Shown: positions 9,052 to 40,318 of the stretch, in pieces | Layout: every line of letters starts with the position of its first letter | Numbering within the stretch: the first letter of the stretch is position 1 | Source: Gammaproteobacteria bacterium | Lineage (GTDB): Bacteria; Pseudomonadota; Gammaproteobacteria; Steroidobacterales; Woeseiaceae | DNA: 64,000 nucleotides | Assembly (NCBI GenBank): GCA_029861535.1 | Contig: JAOTZC010000009.1 | Span: 1-64,000 of the forward strand | Direction: 5' to 3' | Notes under the pieces: model-generated | Database searches by the model: none | Seen by the model: the letters and a program-made list of their open reading frames with translations, nothing else | What the model was told of the DNA's origin: nothing | Made by a program: the position numbers and the translations under genes

Positions 9052-9651
9052 CTAGAGGCTGCTTAAATACTCAGCGACATCGACCAATTCCTGGTCGGCG
9101 AATGATGCCAGCAGCGACCCTTTGGCTGGCGAATTTTGTCGCGCTTTCGACTTGAAATCCAGCATCGTCTTCGCAAGGTATTCCGGATGCTGCCCCGCAA
9201 GCCGCGGCACACGACTGTTACCGTGAAATGCACCCAAATGGCAAGCGACGCATTGTCCCGCCGTGATGACGCTTTTAGCGGTTTGAGTCGCCTGTTCCTG
9301 ATTCATGTATTCCGTATCTCGCCATTCCTGCGCTGAAAAATACTTGGCAATAAGTTGCATGGACTCTTTATCAAGCGCAGAGGACAGTGGCCCCATAATC
9401 GGATCTGCACGAAGTCCCGATTTGAAGTCTTTAAGTTGAACGTAGAGGTAGTAGAACTCTTGCCCCGCTAAGATCGGGTACTGTTGTTGAGTCGATGCTC
9501 CGCCTTCGCCGTGACAGACTTCGCAGGATTTGAGTATCCCGGCGACGGGCGCGAATTCATCGCAATTAGCATCGTCGGCCAGCGCAATAACCGGGCCCAA
9601 ATAGCTGCTGCAACACAGGAATAAAAAGAAATTTAAATATTTGCTAGGCAT
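9052..9651 (-). CDS. Dihaem cytochrome c4-like protein
   Basis: A 199-aa exported cytochrome: signal peptide to about residue 25 (FFLFLCCSSYLGPVIALA), haem motif CEVCH at 43-47 and a second, CVACH, at 134-138. It has the duplicated fold pattern of cytochrome c4, with PILAGQEFYYLYVQLKDFK and PRLAGQHPEYLAKTMLDFK in each half. It is a likely periplasmic electron carrier between quinoprotein dehydrogenases and the terminal oxidase. The open frame extends further upstream, but that part overlaps a terminator and the preceding gene, so the start was set at ATG 9651. Confidence 0.82.
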   Translation of the reverse strand: MPSKYLNFFLFLCCSSYLGPVIALADDANCDEFAPVAGILKSCEVCHGEGGASTQQQYPILAGQEFYYLYVQLKDFKSGLRADPIMGPLSSALDKESMQLIAKYFSAQEWRDTEYMNQEQATQTAKSVITAGQCVACHLGAFHGNSRVPRLAGQHPEYLAKTMLDFKSKARQNSPAKGSLLASFADQELVDVAEYLSSL

Positions 9652-9730
9652 GGACAATCTCGCGTGAAGCCGACAACGGTTTTGACCGGCATTCACTTCG
9701 ATCGGTTCCGCCACGGTGTCGATCGCTTCG

Positions 9731-9770
9731 AAAAAATCCCGGCGGCCAAGAAATGTCGGCCGCCGGGGAT
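9731..9770 (-). terminator. Rho-independent terminator after the second PQQ alcohol dehydrogenase
   Basis: A 12-bp GC-rich stem (9736-9747 against 9758-9770, one bulged G) with a 10-base loop, followed on the reverse strand by a T-run (the A-run at 9731-9736). It is positioned just downstream of the quinoprotein gene that ends at 9791. It may only attenuate transcription into the dihaem cytochrome gene. Confidence 0.8.
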
Positions 9771-9790
9771 TACGTTCAATGCCTATCGAT

Positions 9791-11506
9791 CTACCTGTCG
9801 AGCTTGAAGGCGAGTATTTGATTTCCGCGCTTGAAATCAAGTTGCACATTACCGCCTGCTCCGACGACGATGTATTGGCTGCCGCCGACATTAAATGAAG
9901 CGGGTGGAGCATTGACTCCGGCGCTCGCCTTGTACTGCCACATAAGCTCACCTGACGCTGAATCGTATGCCCGAAACCAACCATTGCCTTCACCGGTGAA
10001 TACGAGACCGCCGCCAGTCGCCAAAATGCCGCCTATCATCGGCTGCTGAGTTTTGACCTTCCATTTAATGCGCCCGGTGTTGTAGTCGACTGCGGTGATA
10101 TTGCCCCATTGCTGCTCGGACGGGATGACTTTGAACGCGCCACCAAGCCAAAGTTTGCCACCCGGATACGGTGTTTCTTCGACGTGGTAGGTCATTGGCT
10201 GATGCAGATTGATCGCATACGCCAAATTAAGGTTCGGATCGATGGCCATCGGTGACCATTCCACCCCGCCGTTGGCACCCGGCAACATGCGTGCGCCCGT
10301 TGTGGTTGGCAGGACCCAGCGGTTTTCTTGACTGACCATAGGCTCGGAGAAGCGGATCAGGCTACAGTCATCTGCGCGGTGCACATAGACGTAACCGGTC
10401 TTACCACCATGCAGCACGCCTTTCACCGAATTGCCGCGTTTATCCGAAACGGTCGTCAATATCGGCGGACTCACCGCATCGAGATCCCATACGTCATGCG
10501 CGATGTACTGAAAATGACACTTGTAGTCACCCGTATCCAAATCGACCGCCACGAGTGAATTTGTGTACAGGTTGTCCCCCGGCCGAATCGCACCATACAG
10601 GTCGGGGGATGGATTACCGACGACGAAATACACAGTCCCCGAGTCCCGGTCGATCGCCATGTTCTGCCAAACACCGCCGCCAAGTGTCTTATAAGGATCA
10701 CCAAGTTTTTTCAGTGCTGCTTTTTCAGCTTTGATATCTCGCAACATGTCCCGACCGGTTGCATCCTTGGTGGCCCATACGCCAACGGACTTCTCGGGCG
10801 TCGTGTTAAAAGTCCATAACAGCTTGCCGGAATTCGCATCGTAGGCCTTGACGAATCCCCGAATTCCATACTCACCGCCGTTAGTTCCGATAAGGATTTT
10901 TCCGTCAACCGCGGTCGGCGCCATTGTTTCGCTGTAGCCGAGTTCGGGATCGGCTATCTGGACTTCCCATTCGAGCGCCCCCGTTTTGGCGTCTAGTGCC
11001 ACGAGTTTTGCATCCAGCGTGCCCATATACAGTCGATCGCCGTATGGAAATACACCGCGATTATTCGGGCCGCAGCAATAGGTCGTGATCGGACCCATTT
11101 TGTGTTTGAAATGCCAGATCTGTTTGCCCGTTTCCGCATTCAACGCATAGACATGGTTGAATGACGTCGTGATATACATGGTGCCGTTCACGACAATTGG
11201 CGTCGTTTCCAGAGACTCGACAATTTCTGTCTCAAACGTCCAAGCGCGCTTCAATCGGTCAACATTGCCAACGTTAATCTGGCGACCCGGATAATAACGT
11301 GTCTGCTTGTAATTACCGTTGGTATGCAGGAAGTTATTGGAATCACCCGCTGCGTGATCCAACATATCCTGCGTAACCGTCAGCATGTCCCCATAGAGCG
11401 TGCCGCCCTCGACCTCCTGAGAATGTGCCGAGCTGACACCGAAAAGCGCCATGCTCGTCGCAATCAGTAGATTGAGAAAAAGATTTTTTTCGAATTTGCT
11501 ACTCAT
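9791..11506 (-). CDS. PQQ-dependent alcohol dehydrogenase, lanthanide type by motif
   Basis: A 571-aa periplasmic quinoprotein of the methanol/ethanol family. The start at ATG 11506 is supported by GGAGG and a signal peptide ([17 protein letters not shown]). It shows beta-propeller W-type repeats ([32 protein letters not shown]) and the adjacent cysteine pair CC at 144-145. Expected metal ligands Glu212 (GGEYGIRG) and Asn298 (GNPSPD) are present, with catalytic Asp341. A second Asp at +2 (WDLD, Asp343) is the hallmark of lanthanide-dependent members. It differs from XoxF in length and sequence, so the substrate may be a larger alcohol; this is inferred. Neighbouring xoxJ/xoxG genes upstream and a terminator downstream suggest it is the last gene of the xoxG-xoxJ transcript. 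Confidence 0.87.
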
Positions 11507-11611
11507 TATTGTGTCCTCCGAACCTCCCAATTGACCGCGCAAAGTTTGCGATCGGCCAGTCACCTTTCAGTATAGACGTTAATTGCCACGCTGGCTTTTC
11601 GACGTCGCGGC

Positions 11612-12484
11612 CTAATCGTCATCGGGCAACTGAGCGGTATTTGTGGCTCGTACAGGATCGAGCAATGGGACGTTGTATGCTTCCAGCACTTCTCGCATCG
11701 GCGCAGCCGTCGAGCGGATCAGTCCTTCCAATACGTCTTTGCGTTCGCCATCGCCGTACCTGACACCCGCAGAAATCGCGAAATCAAATTGAATGCCAGG
11801 CTCCGATACGAGGGGAATTACGACCATCTCTACTTCTGAGCGTTTGGCAAAGAAACCGGCTATCGGCCCCCATACAATTGCAGCATCCAGGTTGCCGCTG
11901 GCGAGCTCCTTTTCGATGATCTCGCCCGGGTACGCTTCCGGATCGCCAGACATGGCGAGGAATGGGACCAGTTGTTCCGTCATGCCATAACGCGCGAGCC
12001 ATTTGACACCGGGCGTCGGCGTAAACGCGCCAATCTTGAGCTGGTCACGTACTTCTGGATTCAAGTTGACGAATTGCCGACCGCTTGTCACATCGTCAAG
12101 GCCGCGTCCCTTTACGAAGACCAGCGCGTATGTTGATCGATAGTAAGGCATCGTCGTCGCAAGCTGGTCGAACCCGGCCGCGACGCCCATCACGACATCG
12201 CATTTGTAAGCGCTTCCCGATTCATTCAATGCTTTTAGGGTGTTACGGATAAATCCGCGCCGTTGTGGGAACCAGGTGTACTGCAGCGGCAAGCCAAGTT
12301 TCTTGGCCCAGATTTCTGCGATCTTGTTTTCCAGGCCGTCAAGCGACTTTGCCGACAAAGGCAAGTTGTTAGGATCAGCGCAAACTCGAAATGCTCGTCC
12401 TTCGTTGGCCGATGAATTGCTGGACAGGACACATGCGACAATTAGCAACAGCCCTTGGCGATATATAGAGCTACGGACCTTCAT
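11612..12484 (-). CDS. xoxJ: XoxJ-like periplasmic binding protein
   Basis: A 290-aa exported protein (signal peptide GLLLIVACVLSSNSSA) of the quinoprotein-dehydrogenase-associated substrate-binding family. It starts with FRVCADPNNLPLSAKSLDG, includes a long KCDVVMGVAAGFDQLATTMPYYRSTY segment and lies between xoxG and a PQQ dehydrogenase gene. XoxJ/MxaJ proteins are thought to help activate or mature the apo-dehydrogenase rather than transport a solute; no permease or ATPase gene is nearby, in line with this. It begins 5 bases after the xoxG stop. Confidence 0.9.
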   Translation of the reverse strand: MKVRSSIYRQGLLLIVACVLSSNSSANEGRAFRVCADPNNLPLSAKSLDGLENKIAEIWAKKLGLPLQYTWFPQRRGFIRNTLKALNESGSAYKCDVVMGVAAGFDQLATTMPYYRSTYALVFVKGRGLDDVTSGRQFVNLNPEVRDQLKIGAFTPTPGVKWLARYGMTEQLVPFLAMSGDPEAYPGEIIEKELASGNLDAAIVWGPIAGFFAKRSEVEMVVIPLVSEPGIQFDFAISAGVRYGDGERKDVLEGLIRSTAAPMREVLEAYNVPLLDPVRATNTAQLPDDD

Positions 12485-12489
12485 TAATC

Positions 12490-13047
12490 TTATTTTGGAA
12501 ACCTTTTCGGTCGACCCGGCGGCAATGCCTTGTCAGCGCGAGCCCGCAAATAACTGAATAGCTCATTATAGCGTTTACTGACATTCGGATTGTCTTTCCA
12601 GGGAGGCATTACGCCCACTTGTCCGGTGAATCCGTTTGCCAGTCTGTCTACAAATAGATCCCGCGTCATATCAGACTCTCGCATTCGGTCGAGCAAGTTC
12701 GGCGCAAATGTGCTGCCCACAGCGTCCTGCGCATGACAGACATGGCAAAAACCGTGGAAAGTTCGCCAGCCGATATAGGTATCGGCATCGACATAACAAA
12801 ATGCTTCACCGGCGTCATTAACCTGTCCGCATTCAACCGAGTACGGTGCCGCTGCGTCGGACCCTGATTCCACGTCTGCAGACTTCGCCGTGCCTGCCGT
12901 ATTTTCGGCTGCCACCGAATTTGCGTTTCCGGGCTGAGGATTTTGCGTTTGGTCCATCGCGCAAGCGACCAGCAGCAACGGTATCGTGATATACATCATG
13001 TGTATCGATTTCGGTCTATACGCTCGATTTAAGCTATGTAATCTCAT
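12490..13047 (-). CDS. xoxG: XoxG cytochrome cL, predicted lipoprotein
   Basis: A 185-aa monohaem cytochrome, the electron acceptor of XoxF. The haem motif is CHVCH at residues 101-105, preceded by PYSVECGQVNDAGEAFCY and followed by APNLLDRM and GVMPPWKDNPNVSKRYNELF, with the C-terminal LPPGRPKRF of the family. The N-terminus has a basic region, then ITIPLLLVAC, which fits a lipobox with the lipidated Cys at 29. A membrane-anchored XoxG would be unusual, since the ones I know are soluble. The start was taken at ATG 13047; ATG 12999 is an alternative that keeps the lipobox. It lies downstream of xoxF beyond a terminator. Confidence 0.88.
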   Translation of the reverse strand: MRLHSLNRAYRPKSIHMMYITIPLLLVACAMDQTQNPQPGNANSVAAENTAGTAKSADVESGSDAAAPYSVECGQVNDAGEAFCYVDADTYIGWRTFHGFCHVCHAQDAVGSTFAPNLLDRMRESDMTRDLFVDRLANGFTGQVGVMPPWKDNPNVSKRYNELFSYLRARADKALPPGRPKRFPK

Positions 13048-13071
13048 GGTATTCCGAAGCATTGTTGTGTC

Positions 13072-13103
13072 AAAAAAATCCCCCGGCCGCATGCGGCCGG
13101 GGG
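13072..13103 (-). terminator. Strong rho-independent terminator/attenuator between xoxF and xoxG
   Basis: An 11-bp perfect GC stem (13080-13090 and 13093-13103, tiny loop) followed on the reverse strand by a T-run (A-run at 13072-13078). It lies between the xoxF stop and the xoxG start. It can allow a high level of xoxF message and a lower level of xoxG-xoxJ message by partial read-through. Confidence 0.9.
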
Positions 13104-13140
13104 TCTAATCATTAACAATCCGTCGATAAGGCGCCGCAGA

Positions 13141-14943
13141 TTAATCCGGCAGAGCAAATACCGTCATTACTCCGCCAAGCTGCGTATATTTGTCCAGCGC
13201 TTTGTATGCGCCGACCGCACCGAGCCCATCGGTGTCGCCCTCCAGGCCTGCAGCCATACCAATGCCGGCCCATCCGCCGATTCCGGAGAGCACGCCGATG
13301 TACTGCTTGCCTTTGTGGTTCCAGGTGTTCACGTTGCCGATGATTCCAGACGGTGTCTTGAACTTGTACAGTTCCTTACCGGTCTTGGCATCAACCGCTT
13401 TCAGATAGCCTTCGAGCGTACCGTAGAACACGACGTCTCCTGCCGTCGCCAACGCACCGCTCCATACAGAGAAGCGCTCAGGCAAAGACCAAACAATTTT
13501 GCCTTTTGACGCATCCCAGGCGATGAAGTTGCCAAGGTTGTTGGTCCCGTCGCCTGTGACTCGACCTGCCGGGAACATGCTAAGCGTCGCACCAACATAA
13601 GGCTGACCGGCCGTGTATTCCACTTCGAACGGCTCATAATCCATGCACACATGGTTTGTCGGCACGTAGAACAGGTTGGTACGCGGCGAGAACGCCGCTG
13701 GTTGCTGGTCCTTGCTTCCCAATGCGGCTGGGCAGATGTTTTCCGTGTTGACGTCCTGACCATTCTGGTCAGTGCTGTACTTCGCAACAACTTTCGGCCG
13801 ACCCGACTTCATGTCCACGTGAGTTGCCCAGTTGACCGCGGGATCGTATTTCTCCGCGACGAGAAGCTCACCGGTTATACGATCGAGCGTATATCCGAAT
13901 CCGTTACGATCAAAGTGCACGAGGACCTTGCGGTCTTTGCCTTTGACCTTAATGTCGGCGAGGATCATCTCGTTGATGCCGTCATAGTCCCACTCGTCGT
14001 GGGGCGTCATCTGATACACCCACTTAGCCATACCTGTATCAAGGTCGCGGGCGAAGATTGTCATGGACCAGCGGTTATCGCCAGGGCGGACCACAGGATT
14101 CCAGGTGCTTGGATTGCCAGTGCCGTAATACACCAGGTTGACATCCGGATCGTAGCTGTACCAGCCCCAAGTCGTGCCGCCACCGATCTTCCACTGATCG
14201 CCTTTCCAGGTCTTGGTGCCGGAGTTCTTGCCGACCGCCTTGCCGAGGTGCGTGGTCTTGCGTGGATCGATCAGCGTCTGATCGTCCGGCCCGGTGCTAT
14301 AGCCCTTCCATGCGAGCGATCCGTCACTGGTGTTGTAAGCTGCCAGGAATCCCTGCACGCCGAACTCACCGCCGCTGATACCGGTTATGACTTTGTCTTT
14401 AATGACGACCGGCGCGTTGGTGTTGGTGCTGCCCTTCTTTGGATCCCCGTTCTTGACGCGCCAGATCATCTTGCCGGACTTGGCATCTAGCGCCACCAGG
14501 TGCGTATCAGCCTGCTGCAGGAAGATTTTCCCGTCGCCATACGCCAGACCACGATAGACCGTGTCGCAGCACATCACCGGAATGGTGTCCGGATTCTGTT
14601 TCGGCTCATATCGCCAAATGATGCTCTGATCGTTCAGATCAAGGGCGAACACCTTATTTGGAAACGGCGTGTGCACATACAGTGTGTCGCCAATGACCAA
14701 TGGCCCGCCTTCGTGCCCGCGCAGAACTCCGGTCGAAAACGTCCAGGCTACCTGCAAATCGCCAACGTTTCGGCTGTTGATCTCATTCAGTTTACTGTAA
14801 CGGGTGCCGGCGTAATCGCCCCCCCAACTCGCCCAGTTGTCTGGGTTATCCATGAGCTTCATCAGCTCAGGGTTTGCACTCGATATCCCTGGCACTGCTA
14901 GCATGAGTGCGATGCTAAGTGTTGCAACTAAACGCTTCGTCAT
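13141..14943 (-). CDS. xoxF: XoxF lanthanide-dependent methanol dehydrogenase
   Basis: A 600-aa periplasmic quinoprotein, the normal length for XoxF5-type enzymes. It oxidises methanol to formaldehyde (or on to formate) with PQQ and a lanthanide. Visible features are a signal peptide to about residue 23, the vicinal disulfide Cys125-Cys126 (VMCCDTV), Glu193 (GGEFGVQG), Asn277 ([10 protein letters not shown]), catalytic Asp319 and the lanthanide-specific Asp321 (WDYDGINE; calcium enzymes have Ala there). The [18 protein letters not shown] segment is typical of the family. The start has GGAGGAGC just upstream. It is followed by a terminator, then xoxG and xoxJ; the mxaRSACKL operon lies upstream on the other strand. 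No mxaF or mxaI is present in the window. Confidence 0.96.
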
Positions 14944-15081
14944 GTCGCTCCTCCGATGATCGATTTAAAATTTTAACGGCCGCGCCCGATCTAGCGTGGA
15001 ACCGCCGCATATCGCATTGCCTTGTTAATCCATCAATGGCAGCAATTTGCCCTTTTCAAATAACGACCGCGTTGCTACTCC

Positions 15082-15447
15082 CTAATCGGCGGTATGTCCG
15101 TTCAATGCCACGAAGCACGACTTCTCCGCAACTTCGGTGACATCTTTCAATTTTTTGACTAGCAGACTTGCTCGATCAGGATCGCGAAATACGCCCCCGC
15201 GTTCACCAGGCGTTGAGCGCAACTGCGCGAACACTTCTGCCTCCGAGTATTCGTCATAGGCGAGCGTCTCTGCTATCTTGTCAATGACGCATATGCACGA
15301 ATACAAATTTTCGTAATTCTGTCCCCCACGGGAATCCATGCAACGCAACACGTATTCCACTCGAGCCTGAGTTGGAAAGTCGTTTGCGTGGGCGGGGAAC
15401 GGTAGCCAAGCGGTAAAAAAGATGGTCGTGACAACCACAATCCGCAC
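15082..15447 (-). CDS. Small exported cysteine protein next to xoxF
   Basis: A 121-aa protein with a signal peptide (VVTTIFFTAWLPFPAHA|ND) and a compact domain: VEYVLRCMDSRGGQNYENLYSCICVIDKIA, then an acidic helix (YDEYSEAEVFAQLRSTPGERGG) and a last Cys in EKSCF. I cannot name the family. It starts at GTG 15447 and ends about 140 bases before xoxF on the same strand, so it could be the first gene of the xoxF transcript. Four cysteines in the mature part suggest disulfides. An accessory role in methanol oxidation is inferred only from position. Confidence 0.65.
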   Translation of the reverse strand: MRIVVVTTIFFTAWLPFPAHANDFPTQARVEYVLRCMDSRGGQNYENLYSCICVIDKIAETLAYDEYSEAEVFAQLRSTPGERGGVFRDPDRASLLVKKLKDVTEVAEKSCFVALNGHTAD

Positions 15448-15625
15448 AACCCCAAAACCCCCGGAATTACTTTTATACTGATTCTACGTAGATGCTAGCA
15501 GAGCAAATTTGCCATGTCAGCCCACAACGGATACTCGGCCAGGCTTTGCGATACGCAAAAGTAAAAATGTCCCTAAAAATCAATATTTATCGCAAAGAAA
15601 TTGAAGTAATTTCGTGGGAGGTATT

Positions 15626-16645
15626 TTGAACGCGGATCAGCAGCTTGCGGACTGGCACGCCCAGGCACTGGCGATCGAAGCGGCGGTCAGGACGGTGATG
15701 GTCGGGCAGGACAGACCAATTCGACTGCTTTGCATCGCAACGTTTACTCGTGGCCACGTCATTCTTGAGGGCAGCGTCGGTGTTGGCAAGACGACTCTGC
15801 TTCGCGCCGTTGCCCGCACACTTGGCGGTGGTTACGAACGTATCGAAGGCACCGTCGACCTCATGCCGAGTGACCTCGTTTACCACACGTATGTCAGTGC
15901 GGATGGAAAACCGCAAGTTGCCCCGGGACCGCTGCTGAAACACGGCGAAGCGCTTGCGATGTTTTTTTTCAACGAGATCAATCGCGCCCGACCGCAGATG
16001 CATTCGTTGATGCTACGCGTCATGGCTGAGCGCACTGTTTCGGCGTTCAATCGTGAATATCGGTTTCCCCACCTGCTGGTCGTCGCCGATCGCAATCGAG
16101 TTGAACGTGAGGAAACGTTTGAGGTTCCGGCGGCTGCGCGTGACCGTTTCCTGATGGAAATTGAAATTAATTCGCCGACGGGTGTGACGTTGCTGCAACA
16201 GCTAATGGTAGACACACGATTTCACGATACGGAACGACTGCTAAATCAGGTTCCTGCGGACATCGTTGACTACCGCGACTTGAATGGAGTTTCCCGGGTT
16301 ATTCAGGGCAACATACAGACGAGTGATGCGATCCAGCAATACGCTCTCAATCTCTGTCGCGCGAGTTCAGACCCGGGTGCTTTTGGTATCGTGCTTGAAG
16401 ACACAGAAATGTCGAGACTGATTCAGGCAGGCGTCAGTCCGCGTGGAATGAGTTACCTGCTGCGGGCGGCGCGGGTGGCCGCCTGGTTGAACGGACGGGC
16501 CAGTGTATTACCTGAAGACATTCACGAGGTGTTTTTTGCGGTAGTGGCACACCGGATATTTTTTAGGCCGGCCTTCGAACTGCGGCGAGCGGAACTGGCG
16601 AAGCAACTGACAGACCGGATACTGCAATCGGTCGCTGCGCCGTAG
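15626..16645 (+). CDS. mxaR: MoxR-family AAA ATPase (MxaR)
   Basis: A 339-aa cytoplasmic ATPase. The Walker A motif GSVGVGKTT lies near residue 50, FFNEINRARPQMHSL is the Walker B region, and sensor and arginine motifs follow. MoxR proteins act as chaperones with von Willebrand A proteins; MxaR is tied to maturation of methanol dehydrogenase. The start TTG 15626 was chosen because GGGAGGT lies 5 bases upstream; GTG 15614 is less likely. It is the first gene of a compact mxaR-S-A-C-K-L operon with overlapping stops and starts. Confidence 0.87.
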   Translation: MNADQQLADWHAQALAIEAAVRTVMVGQDRPIRLLCIATFTRGHVILEGSVGVGKTTLLRAVARTLGGGYERIEGTVDLMPSDLVYHTYVSADGKPQVAPGPLLKHGEALAMFFFNEINRARPQMHSLMLRVMAERTVSAFNREYRFPHLLVVADRNRVEREETFEVPAAARDRFLMEIEINSPTGVTLLQQLMVDTRFHDTERLLNQVPADIVDYRDLNGVSRVIQGNIQTSDAIQQYALNLCRASSDPGAFGIVLEDTEMSRLIQAGVSPRGMSYLLRAARVAAWLNGRASVLPEDIHEVFFAVVAHRIFFRPAFELRRAELAKQLTDRILQSVAAP

Positions 16646-16678
16646 CCAGGTATTTTGGGGAGCATAAGGACTCGACCT

Positions 16679-17518
16679 ATGGAGAGCGCGACAGCGTTTC
16701 AATACCGTGCTCCCTGGCCTGCCGTGTCGTGCTTTCCGGGCAGCCACCAAGGTGTGCAGCGCGGCGGTGGGTACGAAGTTTACGGCACAGCGCCACTGTA
16801 TGCGGGCGATCCGCGCAGATTCGACTTACGCGCTTCGCTTAAAGATCCCTTTGGGCAGCTGCTGGTTCGGGTTTATAAGCAGCGCAGCATCGTACCCGTG
16901 TTCGTGCTCGCCGATGTATCTGCGTCGATGAGTTTTGTTGGGCATGCACGCAAATTCGATATGCTGATCGAGTTTGTCGAATCGCTAGCGTACTCGGCAC
17001 AACTGGTTGGCGATTCTTTTGCATTCACGGCCTGCGATACGACGGTACGCGATGAGCTCTCGCTGCCGCTGACCCGAGCCCGTGGTGCCGGCATAGAGCT
17101 CGGCGAGCGTTTGCGCCGCTATGCGCCAAAGGGAGCAGACGCGTCGGGCCTGCTCGCGGGCGCCGAGCGAATTCCGGGCTCACGCGCGCTGGTCTTCTTA
17201 ATATCGGACTACTTCCTTCCGCTTCAGTTGTTGCGCAATATTTTGAACATTCTTTGCGTACACGCCGTAATCCCGGTGATTCTCGTCGACAGTGCGGATA
17301 GCCGGGTCCCGGGCACCGGCATTACCCATCTTTATGATCCGGAGACCCAGGCGCGACGCACAATACTCCTGCGGCGTTCATGGGCCACTCGCTTCGAACA
17401 GAGGCTATGTGAGCATCGCGAGCAGATAAGACGCTGTCTTGCCGATTACGATTTACGGCCGCTCGATGTTATCGATCGTTTCGAAGCCGAAGCCGTCAGT
17501 CGATACTTTAATGAGTAA
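16679..17518 (+). CDS. mxaS: MxaS, DUF58 protein
   Basis: A 279-aa DUF58-type protein with a VWA-like fold: VFVLADVSASMSF (DxSxS metal site), a family pattern for partners of MoxR ATPases. There is no signal peptide, so it acts in the cytoplasm. It begins at ATG 16679 after AAGGA, 33 bases from mxaR, and its end overlaps the start of mxaA (ATGAGTAA). It belongs to the methanol dehydrogenase maturation operon; the precise step is unknown. Confidence 0.85.
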   Translation: MESATAFQYRAPWPAVSCFPGSHQGVQRGGGYEVYGTAPLYAGDPRRFDLRASLKDPFGQLLVRVYKQRSIVPVFVLADVSASMSFVGHARKFDMLIEFVESLAYSAQLVGDSFAFTACDTTVRDELSLPLTRARGAGIELGERLRRYAPKGADASGLLAGAERIPGSRALVFLISDYFLPLQLLRNILNILCVHAVIPVILVDSADSRVPGTGITHLYDPETQARRTILLRRSWATRFEQRLCEHREQIRRCLADYDLRPLDVIDRFEAEAVSRYFNE

Positions 17519-18446
17519 CGGCGTGGGGCAACATTCACGGCTCATGCGGTTATTGTCGCGCATTACGCCGCTCGTATGCCTTCTTCCTCCGGTGCTTGTT
17601 GCGCAGGCGATTTCCGACATTCGGATCGTCACACCGAGAGAATTCGGATATACGATTGGCGAAACGATTCGACATGAAATGCACCTCAGTCTCGCAGGCA
17701 CGTATCGACTCGACACGACGACCCTGCCGACAAGCGGCCGACTGAACCACTGGCTCGAAATATCGCGAGCAGAGGCCCAAATCGAGCATCGAAATAACGG
17801 AGTTACGTATCACATCGTCGTCGATTATCAAATCTTTAACGCCCCGCGACAGCTGACGTCAGTCACGATTCCACAGCTCGAATTCCTAACGACGGGCGAA
17901 GCGAACTCCATTCCCGTTTTCCTTCCAGCGTGGACGTTTACTATTGGGCCGATCACGCCCTCAGACGCAGACGAAATTATCAGCTTGCGGCCGGATCGCA
18001 AGCCGCAACCGATTCCGGTCATTACCCGGCGTGTCCGCCTGATAATTTCGACGCTGCTGCTTGTCGGCTTGCTGATTTACTTCGTTTATCGGCGGCTTTT
18101 GCTGCCACGACTGGAGCGCGACCGATACCCGTTTTCCGAAGCGCTGCTCGAATTGCGCAAATTGCAGCGCCGGGACGCTGACCCCGAAATCTACCGACGC
18201 GGCCTGCAAACGTTTCACGCGGCGATGAACGCCACGGCCGGCCGGGTTGTCTTCACTGCAAATTTGCAGGACTTCCTTGCCGCTAACTCAAAATTTGCGA
18301 TGTTGAAAACTGAGCTTGTGGCGCTTTACGCCAGGTCTCAGGACATTTTCTTCAAGAACGCAGAGGTCGCGGAATCAGCCACGTCACTACAGGAACTTGT
18401 CGAGCTATGTCGACGGTGCCGCAGGCTTGAGAGATCCGTAGCGTGA
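17511..18446 (+). CDS. mxaA: MxaA-like methanol dehydrogenase maturation protein
   Basis: A 311-aa membrane-anchored protein: N-terminal hydrophobic segment (TPLVCLLPPVLVAQA), a periplasmic beta-rich domain with IVTPREFGYTIGETIRHEM, then one transmembrane helix (RLIISTLLLVGLLIYFVYRRLL) and a cytoplasmic helical tail. This arrangement matches MxaA, needed for metal insertion into calcium methanol dehydrogenases. The start ATG 17511 overlaps the mxaS stop, and its own stop overlaps mxaC. Since only lanthanide-type enzymes are encoded here, it may serve lanthanide insertion; that is an inference. Confidence 0.82.
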   Translation: MSNGVGQHSRLMRLLSRITPLVCLLPPVLVAQAISDIRIVTPREFGYTIGETIRHEMHLSLAGTYRLDTTTLPTSGRLNHWLEISRAEAQIEHRNNGVTYHIVVDYQIFNAPRQLTSVTIPQLEFLTTGEANSIPVFLPAWTFTIGPITPSDADEIISLRPDRKPQPIPVITRRVRLIISTLLLVGLLIYFVYRRLLLPRLERDRYPFSEALLELRKLQRRDADPEIYRRGLQTFHAAMNATAGRVVFTANLQDFLAANSKFAMLKTELVALYARSQDIFFKNAEVAESATSLQELVELCRRCRRLERSVA

Positions 18447-19438
18447 ATATTTCCGTTGCGTACCCGTGGGTCCTCTTTCTACTGGTGCTTGCCGCGGTGC
18501 CGTTATTCACGGCGGAAAAAGCGCTGGTTCGCTACTCCACGCTTACCCTGGTCCCGGACGATAAAGTCTCTGTGCTGATCGGAATTGTCTTGCGCTTATC
18601 ACGCAGCGCAGTGCTGGCACTGCTTGCATTAGCGCTGAGTGGTCCATTTCTGCCCGAAAAAGAAATAGAACGAATCGGGGAGGGCGCACAGATCGTTCTT
18701 CTGCTTGACCGAAGCCGAAGCATGGATCAGCCGTTTGGCGGCCAGCCATTTTCTAATCCGCTGGAGACACGAGGTTCAGAGCCAAAAGGCGCGGTTGCGC
18801 GGCGGCTTTTGTCTCAATTCGTCGCAGACCGGCGCAATGATAAATACGGGATGCTTGCATTCAGCACGCAGCCAATACAGGTGCTGCCGTTGACGGACAA
18901 GACACAGATCATCCGCGCTGCCATCGATGCGGGCAATATCGGCCGCGGGCTGTCCGAGACCGATGTCGGCGCGGGAATCCTCAATGCCATCAGGTTTTTT
19001 GAAGCGCAGCCGTATACGGGTTCGCGAGTCGTTATGCTTGTTTCAGACGGTGGGGCCAGACTGGATCAGACGACGCGTCTGCACATAGCAGACATGTTAA
19101 AACGCTACCGTGTTGCGCTTTATTGGCTATATATCCGTTCGAGAAACAGTCCCGGCATTATCGCTGGGAGCACCGATGACACGCCGGACGATGTGGCGCC
19201 GGCGCGCGTGTTGCACGACTATTTTGAAACGCTTGAGACTCCATACCGTGCGTTCGATGCGGAAGATCCGAACGCCCTCGCCGCAGCGATCGCAGAAGTA
19301 AATGAACTGCAAAGTCTACCGATCCGTTACCTCGATGTTGTTCCAAAGAAGAACATCGCGTCCTGGTTTTACGTTGCCGCAATGGTATTGATTGCGATGC
19401 TGTTGCTCGCAGAGCGAACGGAGATTAAGCGATGGTGA
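18443..19438 (+). CDS. mxaC: MxaC, membrane VWA-domain protein
   Basis: A 331-aa protein with two N-terminal hydrophobic helices, a VWA domain beginning IVLLLDRSRSMDQP (DxSxS metal-ion-dependent adhesion site) and a C-terminal helix (ASWFYVAAMVLIAMLLLAER). This is the BatA/BatB-like layout of MxaC. The start GTG 18443 overlaps the mxaA stop by 4 bases, and the end overlaps mxaK. It probably forms a membrane complex with MxaL and MxaA acting with MxaR. Confidence 0.85.
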   Translation: MNISVAYPWVLFLLVLAAVPLFTAEKALVRYSTLTLVPDDKVSVLIGIVLRLSRSAVLALLALALSGPFLPEKEIERIGEGAQIVLLLDRSRSMDQPFGGQPFSNPLETRGSEPKGAVARRLLSQFVADRRNDKYGMLAFSTQPIQVLPLTDKTQIIRAAIDAGNIGRGLSETDVGAGILNAIRFFEAQPYTGSRVVMLVSDGGARLDQTTRLHIADMLKRYRVALYWLYIRSRNSPGIIAGSTDDTPDDVAPARVLHDYFETLETPYRAFDAEDPNALAAAIAEVNELQSLPIRYLDVVPKKNIASWFYVAAMVLIAMLLLAERTEIKRW

Positions 19439-19974
19439 GTTCCAAATTCAGCATGCCTCTGGCAGCACTTGTCGCTGCCCTCTTGATTGCGATCGCTTAC
19501 GACGGTAGTCGACTGCTGCAACATCAGCGATTCAATGACTCCCTGACGAAAGACGATAAAACCGTCGTCGACGGCCCGGACAACGCGCACCGGCAGTTCG
19601 AAAGAGCATATGCACTCAAACACAAACAAGACTTTAGAGCAGCCGTTAAAGCCTATGCGGCAATTGAGCCGCAGCCGAATAGTTCGCTGCAGATGGACAT
19701 CAAATTCAATCTAGCGAATCTGTACTTCCGCGAGGCATTACGTTTGCGTGACACTGGTGATGACGACCTCGCAATGCCACTGATCGAATTGGCGAAGGAA
19801 AACTACAAGGAAATACTGCGTGCCGAAAATACATATTGGGATGCAAAATTCAACCTGGAATTGGCACTGATCGTGGCTCCGGAAACGGATCCGGTTGATC
19901 CGACGGGCGAACTTAATCCCGAGCGGAGTCCACGGGCAATAACCAAGATTAACGCACGCGAATCCTTGCCATGA
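19432..19974 (+). CDS. mxaK: MxaK-like protein
   Basis: A 180-aa protein with an N-terminal membrane anchor (PLAALVAALLIAIAYDGSRL) and a helical periplasmic domain with TPR-like features (RQFERAYALKHKQDFRAAVKAYA, KFNLANLYFREALRLRD, AKFNLELALIVAPE). It sits between mxaC and mxaL with overlaps on both sides, as MxaK does in mxa operons. Its sequence is less conserved than those of its neighbours, so the assignment leans on position. Confidence 0.78.
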   Translation: MVSSKFSMPLAALVAALLIAIAYDGSRLLQHQRFNDSLTKDDKTVVDGPDNAHRQFERAYALKHKQDFRAAVKAYAAIEPQPNSSLQMDIKFNLANLYFREALRLRDTGDDDLAMPLIELAKENYKEILRAENTYWDAKFNLELALIVAPETDPVDPTGELNPERSPRAITKINARESLP

Positions 19975-20960
19975 AATCGTACCGATTCGCCGTCAATTAC
20001 TTATCCGTGCAGACCTGGCCGTGGCTCGTTCTGTCTTTGCTCCTGCTTGGCATCGCGACGACGCGTTCGTCGATTCGCCTGCCTCACGATACGTATCGAT
20101 ACCTGTTTGTCATGGATATTACGCAAAGCATGAACGTGGACGACATCGAATTCGACGATGTGGCGACAACCAGACTCGAGTTTGCGAAGTCGGTAGTCGC
20201 AAGCGCTTTCCAAGAACTCCCGTGTGGATCAGACGTTGGGCTCGCAATCTTTGCCGAGCATCGCACGTTTGTTTTGTTTACACCGGTCGAGGTTTGCGAC
20301 CACTATCGCGCGTTAGACGATATGCTCGAAAAGGTCGATTGGCGTATAGCTTGGGCAGCGCGCAGCGAAATTGCTAAGGGCCTTTACTCTGCGATCGACG
20401 CTGCGCACAAAAGCGATCACGATACGCGCCTGGTATTCCTCACCGATGGTCACGAGGCGCCGCCGATCAACAAAGACATTAGGCCTCCTTATGGTGGGGA
20501 TCCGGGTTCCGTTGCAGGTTTCATCGGCGGCATCGGCGGGCCCGTGCCAAGCAGGATTCCGCATTTAGACGACAACGATAATATCGTTGGATACTGGGGT
20601 CGCGACGAAGTTATGCAGATTGACGTTTACAGTCTCGGACGCGCGACAACGGAGCAAGGGGAGGCGATGGTCGGTGTCAATATGGTGGACGTCGCACGCC
20701 GAATCGCGCTGGGCCAGGAACACCTATCGTCGCTTCGGGAGAATTATTTGCGGGAACTTGCGATGCAGACGGGACTCGACTATGCCCGCATTGATTCGCC
20801 ATCTGCGTTCATCAAAGGCCTTCGTCAGCAGGCGTATGCCAGGCGTACGCCGGTCGTTTCAGACCTCGGCTGGATTCCGACAACACTTGCGTTTATTTGT
20901 CTGACGTATTGTTTTGTGCTGCAACCGCGGGTGTGTCATGCGCCGACAATCCCACGCTAA
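19971..20960 (+). CDS. mxaL: MxaL, membrane VWA-domain protein
   Basis: A 329-aa protein with an N-terminal helix (WPWLVLSLLLLGIATTRSSI), a VWA domain with FVMDITQSMNVDD (DxTxS site), and a C-terminal hydrophobic segment (GWIPTTLAFICLTYCFVLQP). It overlaps mxaK by 4 bases and ends the operon; no mxaD follows. VWA domains of MxaC and MxaL are thought to be clients of the MoxR ATPase during cofactor-metal insertion. It ends 10 bases before a convergent hydrolase gene. Confidence 0.85.
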   Translation: MKSYRFAVNYLSVQTWPWLVLSLLLLGIATTRSSIRLPHDTYRYLFVMDITQSMNVDDIEFDDVATTRLEFAKSVVASAFQELPCGSDVGLAIFAEHRTFVLFTPVEVCDHYRALDDMLEKVDWRIAWAARSEIAKGLYSAIDAAHKSDHDTRLVFLTDGHEAPPINKDIRPPYGGDPGSVAGFIGGIGGPVPSRIPHLDDNDNIVGYWGRDEVMQIDVYSLGRATTEQGEAMVGVNMVDVARRIALGQEHLSSLRENYLRELAMQTGLDYARIDSPSAFIKGLRQQAYARRTPVVSDLGWIPTTLAFICLTYCFVLQPRVCHAPTIPR

Positions 20961-20970
20961 TACGATCAAA

Positions 20971-21900
20971 CTATAGTCGTTCGATTACATCTCTGATTGA
21001 TTCAACCACTAATTGTGGCTGGCTCAAGTGAATATAGTGGTCCTCGGTTGCGGCAATCACATGTCTTCCTTGCGCTGCCCGACCGGCAAGCTCGGATTGC
21101 ATATCCATCCAGATTCTGGCGCGTGCCGCTGTCGAGTCAGAGCCGCGTAATTGATCGATGCTGTGAGAAATTACGACGACCGGAACATTCGGCAACAGCG
21201 GCGCGTTTTGCAGCTGCTCCGCGCTATTGCGAAGATGCCGTAGTTCGCTTAGAAAAGCCGCCATACTACTGCGTGAAACTGCAAAAGATTTTGCGACAGG
21301 AACGATGTCTTTCGGCAACGCGTCCGGGATCTGGAAAGCGTTTCCCACAAAGAAAGAATTACCGCGCGGTGCACTTGACTTCACGCCAGCTTGTTTGAAC
21401 CGTCGAAACTGATCCTCGTGCGAGGAATCGACAAGTACCATACCCGCGACCTTTTGCGGGTTATTGTGACTGTATAGCCGAACATTCAAGCCGCCGAATG
21501 AATGGCCGACAAGTAGATACGGTGCCGGGACACTGCCATTGCCCAATAGAATTTCGAGTTCGCGGGAAATATTTTCGCTATCGCGCGGTAGTGGTCCCGT
21601 ATCGCTCCATCCGTATCCCGCGCGATCGTAACTGCAGGCGCGCGTGAACGAAGCGACCTCCGGTTGGACGCGCACCCAGTCTAAGGAGCTGCCGCCGAGT
21701 CCGGAATCAAAAATGACCGTCGGCAATCCTTGGCCAATACAATTCAAATGCAGACGATGACTGCCGACCCATATATAGGTTCCCGGCGCCGCCGGCCGTG
21801 CGGCCGAGGTGTCGATCGTTGCATCACTCCGCTGTGTGCCGGCTGTTGCTAATACCAATGTCAGGATTGCGAGCGGGGTGGCGCATCGCATGGACTTCAC
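20971..21900 (-). CDS. Exported alpha/beta hydrolase
   Basis: A 309-aa protein with a signal peptide (CATPLAILTLVLATAGTQRSDA). It has an alpha/beta hydrolase fold: nucleophile elbow GHSFGG, FDSGLGGSSLDWVRVQP near the oxyanion region, acid in VVISHSIDQLRG, and the likely catalytic His in TEDHYIHLSQP. It would hydrolyse an ester or similar bond in the periplasm; the substrate is unknown. Its start overlaps the stop of the SoxYZ-like gene, so they are co-transcribed on the reverse strand with the metallo-hydrolase gene. It lacks the look of a cytoplasmic S-formylglutathione hydrolase. Confidence 0.8.
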   Translation of the reverse strand: MKSMRCATPLAILTLVLATAGTQRSDATIDTSAARPAAPGTYIWVGSHRLHLNCIGQGLPTVIFDSGLGGSSLDWVRVQPEVASFTRACSYDRAGYGWSDTGPLPRDSENISRELEILLGNGSVPAPYLLVGHSFGGLNVRLYSHNNPQKVAGMVLVDSSHEDQFRRFKQAGVKSSAPRGNSFFVGNAFQIPDALPKDIVPVAKSFAVSRSSMAAFLSELRHLRNSAEQLQNAPLLPNVPVVVISHSIDQLRGSDSTAARARIWMDMQSELAGRAAQGRHVIAATEDHYIHLSQPQLVVESIRDVIERL

Positions 21901-22751
21901 TCCTGCGCGAGTTTCTGCTGCCCAGGCGCCGAAACCCGGAGGGTCTGACTGAAATGCAAGTCTTTGGTATCAGTAACGTCTGCTGTGAGTTCGCCATCAC
22001 CTTCCGGCACAAAGTAAAATCGAAAGCTTGGGTTTTCACTGATGCCGAATCCAGTCTCTGCGGAAAAGACTTCTTCGCCGTCCAAACTGACTTTGATGTG
22101 GCGAACGAAATGGGCTGGGGCATACAAACGTGTCACCTGGTCCATTTGTAATCCGTTAAGGTTCGGGTGACTAATCATGAGCTGAGCCAGTGTCGGCTCG
22201 GTAGGCTTCATTTCCCCTTGCGTTTTGAGTTTGATTTTGCCAAGCCGCGCCATTGCTGCATCAAGGTCAGAACCTGCGGGCGCAGAGCATCCACCCGACG
22301 CTTTGATAAAGCGCCGGCTCATGTACAGCTCGCCGTCATTCATTTCTGCGATTGCGCGCACCGGGGTGTAGGCATCGACCCTAACTCGAAACGCCAAATC
22401 TGCGCGGCCACTTTTCGGTGTGAAGTGAAATTTGCCGGCTAGAGCGCCTGGATTCTTGTCGATGATCAAATAAATGGTTTTGATATACCGATCGGTCGTC
22501 TGCGGAATCTGTGCGGTGATCGATATCGGCACAATGGCCGCGTTTTCGGCGCGCTTTGGTATATCCAGCACAATCAAATCATCCGATTCGGTTATCGGAC
22601 GGTCTCCGAAATAGGCGTCTCGCAGACCGCCGGTCCAAAGCATGTCCTCTTCGACCGTTGTTGCCTCACCCGCGACCGGTGCAAGCATCAGGATTAGGGT
22701 TGACCATGCGAGTAGACTGGCGAACGCGTTCGAGTGCAGACCGTTCAACAT
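21897..22751 (-). CDS. Quinoprotein dehydrogenase-associated SoxYZ-like carrier protein
   Basis: A 284-aa exported protein (signal peptide LLAWSTLILMLAPVAGEA). It fuses a SoxY-like half, with a carrier cysteine in SGGCSAPAG, and a SoxZ-like half (ISHPNLNGLQMDQVTRLYAPAHFVRHIKVSLDGEEVF). In Sox systems the carrier cysteine binds sulfur intermediates; the fused version is known from clusters of PQQ dehydrogenases, where the cargo is not established. The start ATG 22751 lies 4 bases after the stop of the metallohydrolase gene. Confidence 0.85.
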   Translation of the reverse strand: MLNGLHSNAFASLLAWSTLILMLAPVAGEATTVEEDMLWTGGLRDAYFGDRPITESDDLIVLDIPKRAENAAIVPISITAQIPQTTDRYIKTIYLIIDKNPGALAGKFHFTPKSGRADLAFRVRVDAYTPVRAIAEMNDGELYMSRRFIKASGGCSAPAGSDLDAAMARLGKIKLKTQGEMKPTEPTLAQLMISHPNLNGLQMDQVTRLYAPAHFVRHIKVSLDGEEVFSAETGFGISENPSFRFYFVPEGDGELTADVTDTKDLHFSQTLRVSAPGQQKLAQE

Positions 22752-22755
22752 GGTT

Positions 22756-23727
22756 TCAGTCCTCCCATTCCAGTTCCGCGAATGCGGCGCCCACATTGCG
22801 CTCGTGATAGCGCTCGACCAAAGGCCATTGCGCTTTTTGCGGTGCGTCAATGGTAGCTTGAGCCGAGGCCAAATCACCACCTTTCGCGATCCAGGCCCGG
22901 ACTTTGGCCCGCAGTTCGGTCAGATACTGAAGCGTCGGGGCCATCGCTGCGGGCCAGCGCGCGCTGGTCGGACCATGGCCGGGAACGACATAATCCAATG
23001 GTATGGCCGATAACTGCTCGAGTTCGTCGATCCAGCCGTTGATGCTGCCGTCTATGACGGGCAGATGCTCCAAAAACACCAGGTCACCGACAAACGCCGT
23101 ATTCGTTCTGCTATCCAATATGCTCAAATCGTGGTCAGTATGCGCGCTATCGTGGGCCCGCAGTGTCAAGACGCGTCCACCAATATCTAATTCGACCGTC
23201 TCCGCGACTACGCGTTCCGGAAAGACGATATTCGACGCGTCAAGCTCGTGGCCCGCGTGAGCCGATGCACGCTCGAGGTAGAGATCGCCGCGTAGTGCCA
23301 ACGCGCGTGGTAGTTTCGCATGGCCGATGAATTCAACTCCCGGTCGCACGAACGCCGCGTTGCCCAGCAGATGATCCGGATGCACATGCGTATTGATCAC
23401 ATAGCATACGGGGCGACCCGTTACGCCGCGGATTGCGCAATCCAGCGCTCGACCTTCGGCGATACTGCCGCCGGTGTCGATGATCGCAACGCAGCGATCG
23501 CCGACGATAAAGCCGAGGTTTGCAATTTCGTCACCTTCGAATACGACTGCGGCATGGCCGGGCCGAACATACATGCCCGGAGCGACTTGCACGATGTCGG
23601 TTGATGGCGAGCAAGTCTCGCGCTCGGGTGTCGTAGCAGCGCAAGACAGCGCGAGAAAACCACAACTCAGCTGAGATATCAGCAATTTTCGAGCGTTCGA
23701 TTTTCGTGGTTTGCTGGGCATGGACAT
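22756..23727 (-). CDS. Quinoprotein relay system zinc metallohydrolase (MBL fold)
   Basis: A 323-aa exported protein of the metallo-beta-lactamase fold. The zinc motif HVHPDH lies at residues 114-119, with DTGGS and LRAHDSAHTDHDL and the late motif VVPGHGP. The N-terminus ends FLALSC, a plausible lipobox, so it may be a lipoprotein. This matches the SoxH-like proteins that pair with SoxYZ-like carriers in quinoprotein clusters. It is the first gene of a three-gene operon with the carrier and the alpha/beta hydrolase. The substrate, perhaps a thioester on the carrier, is unknown. Confidence 0.85.
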   Translation of the reverse strand: MSMPSKPRKSNARKLLISQLSCGFLALSCAATTPERETCSPSTDIVQVAPGMYVRPGHAAVVFEGDEIANLGFIVGDRCVAIIDTGGSIAEGRALDCAIRGVTGRPVCYVINTHVHPDHLLGNAAFVRPGVEFIGHAKLPRALALRGDLYLERASAHAGHELDASNIVFPERVVAETVELDIGGRVLTLRAHDSAHTDHDLSILDSRTNTAFVGDLVFLEHLPVIDGSINGWIDELEQLSAIPLDYVVPGHGPTSARWPAAMAPTLQYLTELRAKVRAWIAKGGDLASAQATIDAPQKAQWPLVERYHERNVGAAFAELEWED

Positions 23728-24029
23728 TGGTTAAGCTCATAAAAATCTGGGCAATTCTATTGCAGCTGGTGTCCAATGGCACTTGCTGGGTCAGCAAGTT
23801 CTGAACGATGCGGTTTCCGGATCGCCCAAAGGCCTTGTAGACCAAGTCTAAAATGGGTAGCGTTCCGAGGCTACGTGCGCCGCGTTGATTTCGGCGCCGC
23901 GGGCGATCGTATGCCAACGCGGGAAAATCCAAGACTGGGGCGCTGATGCGCAAAACAAAACCCCGCTAGTTGGCCGCATGCAGTGCGATATGCTGTCTAA
24001 CGATAATAGATAACGGCGAGAGAAAGCAC
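23728..24029. other. Divergent intergenic region, 302 bases
   Basis: This is the shared upstream region of the metallohydrolase operon (leftward) and the TonB receptor (rightward). No gene was seen. A short inverted repeat, GTAGC at 23857-23861 with GCTAC 8 bases on, is present; its meaning is unknown. No convincing promoter could be assigned by eye. Confidence 0.3.
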
Positions 24030-27264
<3,235 letters not shown>

Positions 27265-32429: not shown

Positions 32430-32654
32430 TCGCCTGCGCATCCCTTAGCGCCTTGCCCTTGGCCGACTACGCTACCTCGAACTAGTCGACGGACAGAATA
32501 ACTAGCTACCTTGTAACGCGCCCCACGTCGTGGACGTGGCCGCATAGACCGTGGGGGTGTGCGGTGCAACAAATCCGTAGTTGTCGCGCCCGTTGCCGTA
32601 AACTATGCTGGCACGAAACGGCCTGATGTGCAGACGTTCAGCTGCAGCGAATCG

Positions 32655-33707
32655 ATGAGCAACGAAATTAAGCTGACTGAGTATAGTCACGGTGCCGGAT
32701 GTGGTTGCAAGATCTCTCCCAAGGTGCTGGACGTGATCCTGGAAGGCAATGTAAGCATTGCCGATGCGCGGTTGTTGGTGGGCAACACTTCCCGGGATGA
32801 CGCAGCTGTGTACGACATGGGCAACGGTCAGGCGGTCATCTCCACGACCGATTTTTTCATGCCGATTGTCGACGACCCGGTGGAATTCGGGCGCGTTGCG
32901 GCTACCAATGCTATCAGCGACGTGTATGCGATGGGCGGCACGCCGCTCATGGCGATCGCGATTCTCGGTTGGCCGATAAATACGCTGTCCGCGCAGATCG
33001 CGAGGCAAGTCGTCGAAGGAGGTCGGCAGGCGTGCAAGGACGCTGGCATTTCGCTTGCCGGCGGTCACAGTATCGACGCACCCGAGCCGATCTTCGGGCT
33101 CGCCGTCACTGGGTCCGTGGAACGGCGACATCTCAAGCGCAACGATACGGCCGCCGCCGGTAACCGTCTGTACCTGACCAAACCGTTAGGAATAGGCATT
33201 CTGACCACCGCCCAAAAGCAGAAGAAGCTGCGGTCGAAGCATCGGCACATAGCCAAGGATGCGATGTGCGAGCTCAATGACATCGGACCGAAGCTGGCCA
33301 GGATCGATGGCGTCACGGCGATGACCGATGTCACAGGATTCGGTTTGCTGGGCCATCTCAGTGAGATGTGCGAAGGAAGCGGGCTGCGTGCCCGTATCCG
33401 TTTTGATCGAATTACGCAGCTCGAGGGGACGGAAGAGTACCGGCAGCAACATTGCATACCTGGTGGCACCGAGAGGAACTTCGCAAGCTACGGTGCGGCA
33501 ATCGGGGCGATGACCGAAGCAGAAAAACAGATTCTCTGTGATCCACAAACGAGCGGTGGCCTTCTTGTAGCGGTCGCGCCGCATGCGGAAGCCGACGTGC
33601 TAACGATTGCGCGATGCTCGGGGCGTTCGGTCGCGCACATTGGCGAGTTCATGAATTTGGACGGCGATACGTTGGTAGAAATCGTGAGCGACGCGTCCGC
33701 AGCATGA
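32655..33707 (+). CDS. selD: Selenide, water dikinase
   Basis: A 350-aa protein making selenophosphate from selenide and ATP, the selenium donor for SelA. The N-terminus is almost identical in pattern to E. coli Sel[18 protein letters not shown], with the active-site pair Cys16 and Lys19 (cysteine, not selenocysteine). [11 protein letters not shown] and [10 protein letters not shown] are also diagnostic. ATG 32655 was chosen because it matches the family N-terminus; the frame is open further upstream. It is the first gene of the selD-selA-selB-selC-fdn module. Confidence 0.96.
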
Positions 33708-33742
33708 TATAAATACTGGCCGACATCCAGACAAAAAGAAAA

Positions 33743-40310: not shown

Positions 40311-40318
40311 GGTAATCC

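Follow-up and report, generated by a model that had tools for sequence, protein, structure and literature searches.

An mxaRSACKL operon beside xoxF and outside the MxaFI-linked clade in a Woeseiaceae gammaproteobacterium

The mxaRSACKL genes, known as helpers in the completion of the calcium-dependent methanol dehydrogenase MxaFI, have been described within the mxaFJGIRSACKLD cluster, and also apart from mxaFJGI. According to the portion of a 2014 Lake Washington paper available to us, M. mobilis JLW8 and M. versatilis 301 carry two mxaRSACKL copies and lack mxaFJGI, M. mobilis strain 13 has an operon copy three genes from its xoxFJG cluster, and MxaRSACKL is named together with XoxFJG in the core genome (PMC4109929). 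The occurrence of RSACKL without mxaFI in XoxF-only strains, and its proximity to xoxFJG, were thus already known for Methylophilaceae in 2014. Partial mxa clusters without mxaFI have also been reported in XoxF5 genomes, in the accessible text of a 2026 Sphaerotilus paper (PMC13300288). Here, we describe the mxaR-S-A-C-K-L operon in a stretch of 64,000 nucleotides (hereafter the window; contig JAOTZC010000009.1, positions 1 to 64,000, forward strand) from a metagenome-assembled genome (MAG) of a Woeseiaceae gammaproteobacterium (GCA_029861535.1). It is probably an XoxF-associated form of the mxaRSACKL-family MoxR/VWA maturation machine, one that would aid XoxF maturation without being strictly needed for it. 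Like the copies of M. mobilis JLW8 and M. versatilis 301, it occurs without mxaFJGI and, as with the copy of strain 13, lies near xoxFJ; the difference is that the available portion of the 2014 paper calls those copies methanol dehydrogenase accessory genes and assigns none to XoxF (PMC4109929). In the titles and abstract openings covered by our literature search, no account of distinct MxaFI-linked and XoxF-linked operons was found, and one may be in print.

The operon is intact, consists of six co-directional open reading frames (ORFs) with overlaps or short gaps at 15614-20960 (+), and is divergent from a lanthanide-type xoxF; the preliminary description of this DNA had noted the full operon next to xoxF, which is confirmed. 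These genes are as follows.

13141..14943, minus strand: xoxF, lanthanide-type pyrroloquinoline quinone (PQQ) methanol dehydrogenase and proposed client; TIGR03075, 765.7 bits
15614..16645, plus strand: mxaR, MoxR-family AAA+ ATPase (AAA_3 / AAA_lid_2; 118.9 bits to 2r44); Walker A GSVGVGKT, Walker-B-region NEINRA
16655..17518, plus strand: mxaS, DUF58 protein (PF01882, E 2.4e-18); DxSxS metal-site motif, DVSASM
17511..18446, plus strand: mxaA, homologous to annotated MxaA; ATG 17511 taken as the start, the longest ORF running from TTG 17439
18443..19438, plus strand: mxaC, membrane VWA protein (VWA_2, E 5e-11); MIDAS-type motif DRSRS
19432..19974, plus strand: mxaK, encoding a small protein with weak TPR-like similarity and lying between mxaC and mxaL; matches to MxaK from other operons
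19971..20960, plus strand: mxaL, membrane VWA protein (VWA_2, E 4.5e-9); motif DITQS

NCBIfam and Pfam searches gave the domain order MoxR ATPase, DUF58, MxaA-like, VWA, weakly TPR-like MxaK (sub-threshold matches only) and VWA. On annotated plasmids of Methylocystis iwaonis and Methylobacterium nodulans, mxaFJGI is followed by six genes to which the window proteins correspond one after another. By gene order the operon therefore belongs to the mxaRSACKL family in the broad sense, and it shares with the mxaRSACKL(D) genes of the mxaFJGIRSACKLD cluster an identical order of the six genes, gene-for-gene homology, the MxaR and MxaS motif types and the frames of the VWA metal sites. MxaA had no NCBIfam match, no Pfam match above cut-off, no sequence match in the PDB and no Foldseek match at E <= 0.001; an AlphaFold2 model (mean predicted local distance difference test score, pLDDT, 88.5; predicted template-modelling score, pTM, 0.54) predicts an N-terminal helix, a beta-sandwich, a long transmembrane-like helix and a helical domain. 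The window MxaC scored 485.3 bits against our MxaC profile A3, of which it is itself a row.

The neighbouring XoxF was similar to solved lanthanide-dependent XoxF structures (1031.6 bits to 6dam and 959.3 bits to 6oc5), and its motif, HDEWDYDG, has Asp at position +2. An Asp at this position marks lanthanide enzymes, and an Ala marks MxaF; all six MxaF proteins of the plasmid loci carried the Ala, in the form DEWDYAG. The window contains neither mxaF nor mxaI, as the preliminary description held, and no linkage to mxaF, mxaJ, mxaG or mxaI was found in the window or in the MAG. A genome-wide search with the MxaI family PF02315, which matched 6/6 plasmid records with mxaFJGI, found no match in the MAG, which is 76.18% complete, so that absence from the organism is not proven. 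Furthermore, MxaI had no match in three genomes of the same order that carry both the operon and XoxF (G043, G056 and G058; 98-99% complete). The preliminary description had also spoken of lanthanide-only dehydrogenases; this is correct for the window but not for the MAG, because a third quinoprotein on contig C6 (L002), a quinohaemoprotein-type alcohol dehydrogenase of 711 residues with a C-terminal CGSCH haem motif, has the sequence WDYN, with the Asn at +2 of a Ca-type site.

To examine how widely the operon occurs, genome contigs were scanned with MxaC, and the best 80 of 114 confirmed stretches were used, a set that favours operons resembling that of the window. The six genes were complete in 69/80 of these loci, XoxF in 31/80, and MxaF or MxaI in 0/80; the XoxF proteins on these loci had Asp at +2 in 32/32 cases, and MxaI was found in 1/79 of the genomes concerned (L105 and L136 being one genome, and many being MAGs). 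Named holders of the operon include Variovorax, Methyloversatilis universalis, Rhizobacter, Piscinibacter and Rubrivivax. Genomes with the operon and xoxF but without MxaI thus exist in this order and elsewhere, and the arrangement is not unique to the window; the preliminary description had proposed a survey of such genomes lacking mxaF.

The association was then quantified in a class sample of 369 genomes (400 requested), in which the best three (XoxF) or five (MxaC) first-look candidates per genome were scored, so that absences are slightly less firm than in a set of 60 relatives. The XoxF query matched 45 genomes at E<=1e-100, of which 35 above 450 bits were counted as XoxF/MxaF, including one (G450) with a 632-bit match and no motif found by pattern, and 10 with best matches of 352-394 bits were set aside. 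The MxaC profile separated two groups, with 17 genomes at 215 bits or more and the next at about 86 bits or less. XoxF or MxaF was present in 16 of the 17 MxaC-positive genomes, the exception being G337 (64% complete), and MxaI was present in 6 of 36 genomes tested, all six with MxaC. When the window genome and the genomes with MxaI or MxaF were excluded, the operon MxaC was found in 8/27 XoxF genomes and 0/333 others (Fisher 3e-10), or 1/334 others if G337 is counted (Fisher 3e-9), kinship being ignored in both tests. These data indicate that the operon goes with XoxF/MxaF enzymes. Among the 60 relatives, 28 had a PQQ dehydrogenase above cut-off; XoxF (735 bits or more) was present in six, four of which had the operon, whereas the operon occurred in 0/22 relatives with PQQ dehydrogenases above cut-off and no XoxF-like score. 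These 22 were judged by score with all first-look candidates scored, and two of them (G009 and G023) were inspected. The pair G207 and G337 had been considered as carrying the operon without MxaF and was dropped, as G207 has an Ala-type MxaF fragment and G337 is its incomplete genus-mate.

Some other loci were recorded during these searches. On two Caballeronia plasmids, L055 (operon at 9219-14422) and L059, the operon is complete; neither XoxF nor MxaF nor MxaI was present in the stretch examined, and the whole plasmids gave no MxaI; in L055 the operon lies among heavy-metal and arsenic resistance genes. The operon of L095, titled as a Klebsiella pneumoniae MAG, groups with beta-proteobacterial MAGs, and the bin is probably mislabelled. 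Genome G297 (L232, L233) encodes MxaC three times and has a divergent XoxF that sits on a long branch; MxaI gave no match there.

Operon phylogeny was inferred from unrooted trees, with FastTree for 103 loci (7 of 110 left out) and with IQ-TREE for 42 loci and four genes by a quick search. Row labels count only the DNA fetched, by which 60/110 loci were labelled as neither MxaFI-linked nor XoxF-linked, many of them on short contigs, and the Methylophilaceae copies are not among the rows. The MxaFI-linked operons fell on one side of a branch, together with G337 (and G207 in FastTree), with a Shimodaira-Hasegawa-like approximate likelihood-ratio test (SH-aLRT) value of 99 in IQ-TREE, and this side includes the row L234. 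The window operon, in contrast to the mxaRSACKL(D) genes, has no mxaFJGI or mxaD beside it and lies outside this clade, in a group of 26 rows (support 100, IQ-TREE) without any MxaFI-linked operon; grouping the window trio with the MxaFI clade was rejected by the approximately unbiased (AU) test (p-AU 0.0004), the group having been named after the tree was seen. Two copies occur in each of the genomes G273 and G386, the first within an mxaFJGI cluster and the second outside the MxaFI clade (L226 and L217, respectively); in L217 only R, S, A and C were detected. The preliminary description had suggested that the operon might have been kept or recruited for lanthanide enzymes. If kept is taken to mean a simple leftover of a lost mxaFI cluster, this appears unlikely, since the window operon falls outside the single clade of MxaFI-linked operons; recruitment is a matter of the root of the tree, which is taken up below. 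The window operon is accordingly placed with XoxF-associated RSACKL, as it adjoins xoxF, lies outside the MxaFI clade and comes from a MAG in which MxaI was not found.

The two sides of the tree also differ in MxaL and MxaC, at residues within the VWA metal-site motifs or adjoining them. In MxaL, the motif D-[IV]-[TS]-Q-S was present in 74/88 rows outside the MxaFI clade, and its Gln was replaced by Arg or Gly in 13/13 rows inside, a difference found by reading motif columns rather than by the diagnostic-residue thresholds; in MxaC, SDGA was present in 14/14 rows inside, compared to SDGG in 82/96 and SDGA in 13/96 outside. At the set thresholds, five clade-diagnostic residues were found in MxaC, one in MxaK and none in MxaR, MxaS, MxaA or MxaL. 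None of these residues shows metal choice.

The genes around xoxF and the operon are listed below.

9791..11563, minus strand: second quinoprotein dehydrogenase, HDVWDLDA with Asp at +2, adjoining xoxJ
11612..12484, minus strand: xoxJ-like periplasmic binding protein; TIGR03871 257.1 bits, above cut-off
12490..13092, minus strand: c-type cytochrome, XoxG-like by position; TIGR03874 71.4 bits, under the cut-off of 161.75
15082..15447, minus strand: small conserved protein of 121 residues between xoxF and mxaR, with four invariant Cys
21897..23727, minus strand: SoxYZ-like carrier and zinc metallohydrolase 2, quinoprotein-associated; TIGR04557 and TIGR04559 above cut-offs
23970-26126, plus strand: TonB-dependent receptor; PqqU is its best match in NCBIfam, at 440.8 bits and well short of the cut-off of 1200

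With the second quinoprotein, both such enzymes of the window have the lanthanide-type Asp, in agreement with the preliminary description; the second scored 431.7 bits against TIGR03075, under the cut-off of 480.05, and its nearest solved structure is the quinoprotein ethanol dehydrogenase 6zcv (262.2 bits). The 121-residue protein looks secreted, is present in 34/69 XoxF loci scanned, and has C36, C51, C53 and C111 invariant in 35/35 aligned copies; it has no NCBIfam match and no Pfam match above cut-off, and it is classed as an unnamed XoxF-associated family. The TonB-dependent receptor is retained beside the xoxF block in L041, L042, L067 and L068, and in L041 the second quinoprotein gene has an internal deletion. 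Elsewhere in the window, a selenium block at 32559-42709 (+) encodes SelD, SelA, SelB and tRNA-Sec (37039-37131), followed by a formate dehydrogenase-N whose alpha subunit has an in-frame TGA at 37830-37832 (residue 227) that is read through; the beta and gamma subunits and FdhE are present.

Several observations weigh against a role for the operon in XoxF maturation. Two related loci, L041 (G016, same genus) and L042 (G057), have lost the operon and retain an intact xoxF, and blastn breakpoints define the missing segment.

15997..21933, no strand: 5.9-kb stretch deleted in L041/L042, which takes in an alpha/beta hydrolase gene and all of the operon but the 5' part of mxaR

In both loci, the aligned flanks are separated by 17 bases, mxaR survives as a frameshifted remnant, and the order xoxF, cytochrome, xoxJ, 121-residue protein gene, SoxYZ, hydrolase and receptor is kept; neither MxaA nor MxaC was found elsewhere in the two MAGs (85% and 94% complete). 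The xoxF genes of L041 and L042 differ by 17.5 synonymous and 7.5 non-synonymous changes, and the ratio of non-synonymous to synonymous rates (dN/dS 0.126) indicates that purifying selection continued to act on xoxF once the operon was gone. Across some 16 kb around xoxF, L041 and L042 share about 98% identity, although their MAGs are assigned to different families; this likeness may reflect recent transfer or the mis-binning of one contig, and the pair was counted as one deletion event. Because L041/L042 lost the operon and kept xoxF, the operon is not strictly or universally required for XoxF. Likewise, 19/27 class-sample XoxF genomes without MxaI or MxaF have no operon, and XoxF was nearby in only 22 of the 44 nearest-MxaC loci that extend 9 kb or more in both directions from MxaC; in G058, the operon and XoxF sit on different contigs. 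In favour of the role, XoxF type goes with the operon: one XoxF clade (SH-aLRT 100, picked after the tree was seen) had a non-MxaFI operon in 1/19 genomes (0/17 in a tree without short fragments), compared to 8/12 genomes for the remaining XoxF rows in the main group (p 0.0005, kinship ignored), the window being left out and the long-branched G297 and G378 not counted; G335 nevertheless combines the operon with an XoxF of the mostly operon-free clade.

The phylogeny and the literature add further points of this kind. Five non-MxaFI rows (L226, L217, L238, L229 and L230), of which L229 and L230 are XoxF-linked and L226 and L217 are the second copies mentioned above, are placed closer to the MxaFI clade than the window operon is. 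Rooting with a Bat outgroup did not decide which of the two sides, MxaFI or XoxF, came first, and gave the MxaFI group support of 83/38, and the trees do not show the non-MxaFI operons to be one lineage. In M. extorquens AM1, the mxaRSACKL genes drop with lanthanum (log2 change -4.3 to -7.0), as given in the part of that report available (PMC6414531), and the accessible text of two proteome studies of MxaFI strains has MxaR and MxaS (PMC9291206), and MxaA, MxaC, MxaK and MxaL (MxaL in one of two treatments; PMC12482762), lower with lanthanide. Finally, a 2024 review states, in the section available, that XoxF does not require the mxaACKLD and mxaRSEH genes (PMC11845868), a statement that presumably rests on strains whose operon belongs to MxaFI.

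If an ancestral mxaFJGIRSACKL cluster had lost mxaFI, the operon could linger as a relic or have been co-opted for XoxF. Loss of a working mxaF is on record in the available part of a report on Methylosinus Ce-a6, in which a deletion truncates mxaF and mxaC (PMC7104280), and the decay in L041/L042 demonstrates that the operon can erode near the window lineage; however, the six window genes are all open with conserved motifs, the operon lies outside the MxaFI-linked clade, and the nearly complete G043, G056 and G058 pair it with XoxF and have no MxaI match, which together make such a relic quite improbable. The client could instead be another quinoprotein, either the second Asp-type enzyme, which adjoins xoxJ, or the Ca-type enzyme on C6, both being present in the MAG. 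This is unlikely, given that the best match to the second enzyme lay on only 3/80 MxaC loci (L067, L103 and L114), that L042 keeps that enzyme without the operon, and that none of the 22 relatives with PQQ dehydrogenases but no XoxF-like score had the operon.

A machine for general redox or periplasmic stress, with no more than a loose tie to methanol oxidation, would fit the parallel in gene order and domains with MoxR-DUF58-BatA loci, which we take to be Bat operons and one of which lies on contig C37 of the MAG. This is very unlikely for the window operon: its MxaC scores with MxaC proteins and apart from Bat VWA proteins (at most about 86 bits across the class sample, and 91.5 bits in the relative G019, near the Bat range), and the Walker B motif of its MxaR carries Asn, as in 14/14 MxaFI-side and 87/88 other MxaR proteins, whereas 5/5 Bat-type MoxR proteins have Asp (DEINRA-type). 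Furthermore, in 4/6 Bat loci the gap between DUF58 and VWA genes was 443-500 bases, too short for MxaA, DUF58 being undetected in the other two, and the operon is tied to XoxF or MxaF as described above. A variant of the maturation role, in which the operon would serve XoxF only with calcium or scarce lanthanide, by rescue or proofreading, has a modest chance of being right, and its probability overlaps that of the favoured explanation; it accords with the dispensability of the operon in some lineages and with the repression of the homologous AM1 operon by lanthanum (PMC6414531), and nothing in this analysis separates it from the favoured one.

As for how an XoxF-associated maturation machine would work, an analogy is offered by NorQ/NorD, reported as a MoxR/VWA pair for iron insertion into nitric oxide reductase (PMC13036017, PMC9976466); compared by description only, it likewise joins a MoxR AAA+ ATPase to a VWA partner in metal insertion, but has nitric oxide reductase as its client and two proteins rather than six. 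What the data here establish is gene content, motifs, co-occurrence, a position outside the MxaFI-linked clade, and loss of the operon with retention of xoxF; the client, the metal step and the topology are inferred, the mechanism by this analogy. The cytoplasmic ATPase MxaR, with MxaS, would drive a membrane assembly of MxaA, MxaC, MxaK and MxaL, whose VWA and beta-sandwich domains would act in the periplasm on apo-XoxF; the assembly might ease the entry of metal and PQQ or remove wrongly loaded enzyme, and would thereby improve XoxF maturation without being strictly needed.

A broader proposal, which we put forward tentatively and hold to be possible rather than probable, is that XoxF-linked RSACKL operons are dedicated lanthanide-enzyme maturases, separate from the MxaFI branch, that load lanthanide and PQQ into some XoxF enzymes but not all, or proofread them there; certain genomes would then have one operon per metal, calcium and lanthanide, and XoxF would be split into chaperone-using and chaperone-free enzymes. 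The underlying question is how a periplasmic enzyme comes to receive a lanthanide when calcium is plentiful. The many XoxF genomes with the operon and no MxaI, the two genomes with two operons and the natural deletion make this question testable in strain pairs, and the rare-earth enzymes of many bacteria may have assembly helpers of their own, without always needing them.

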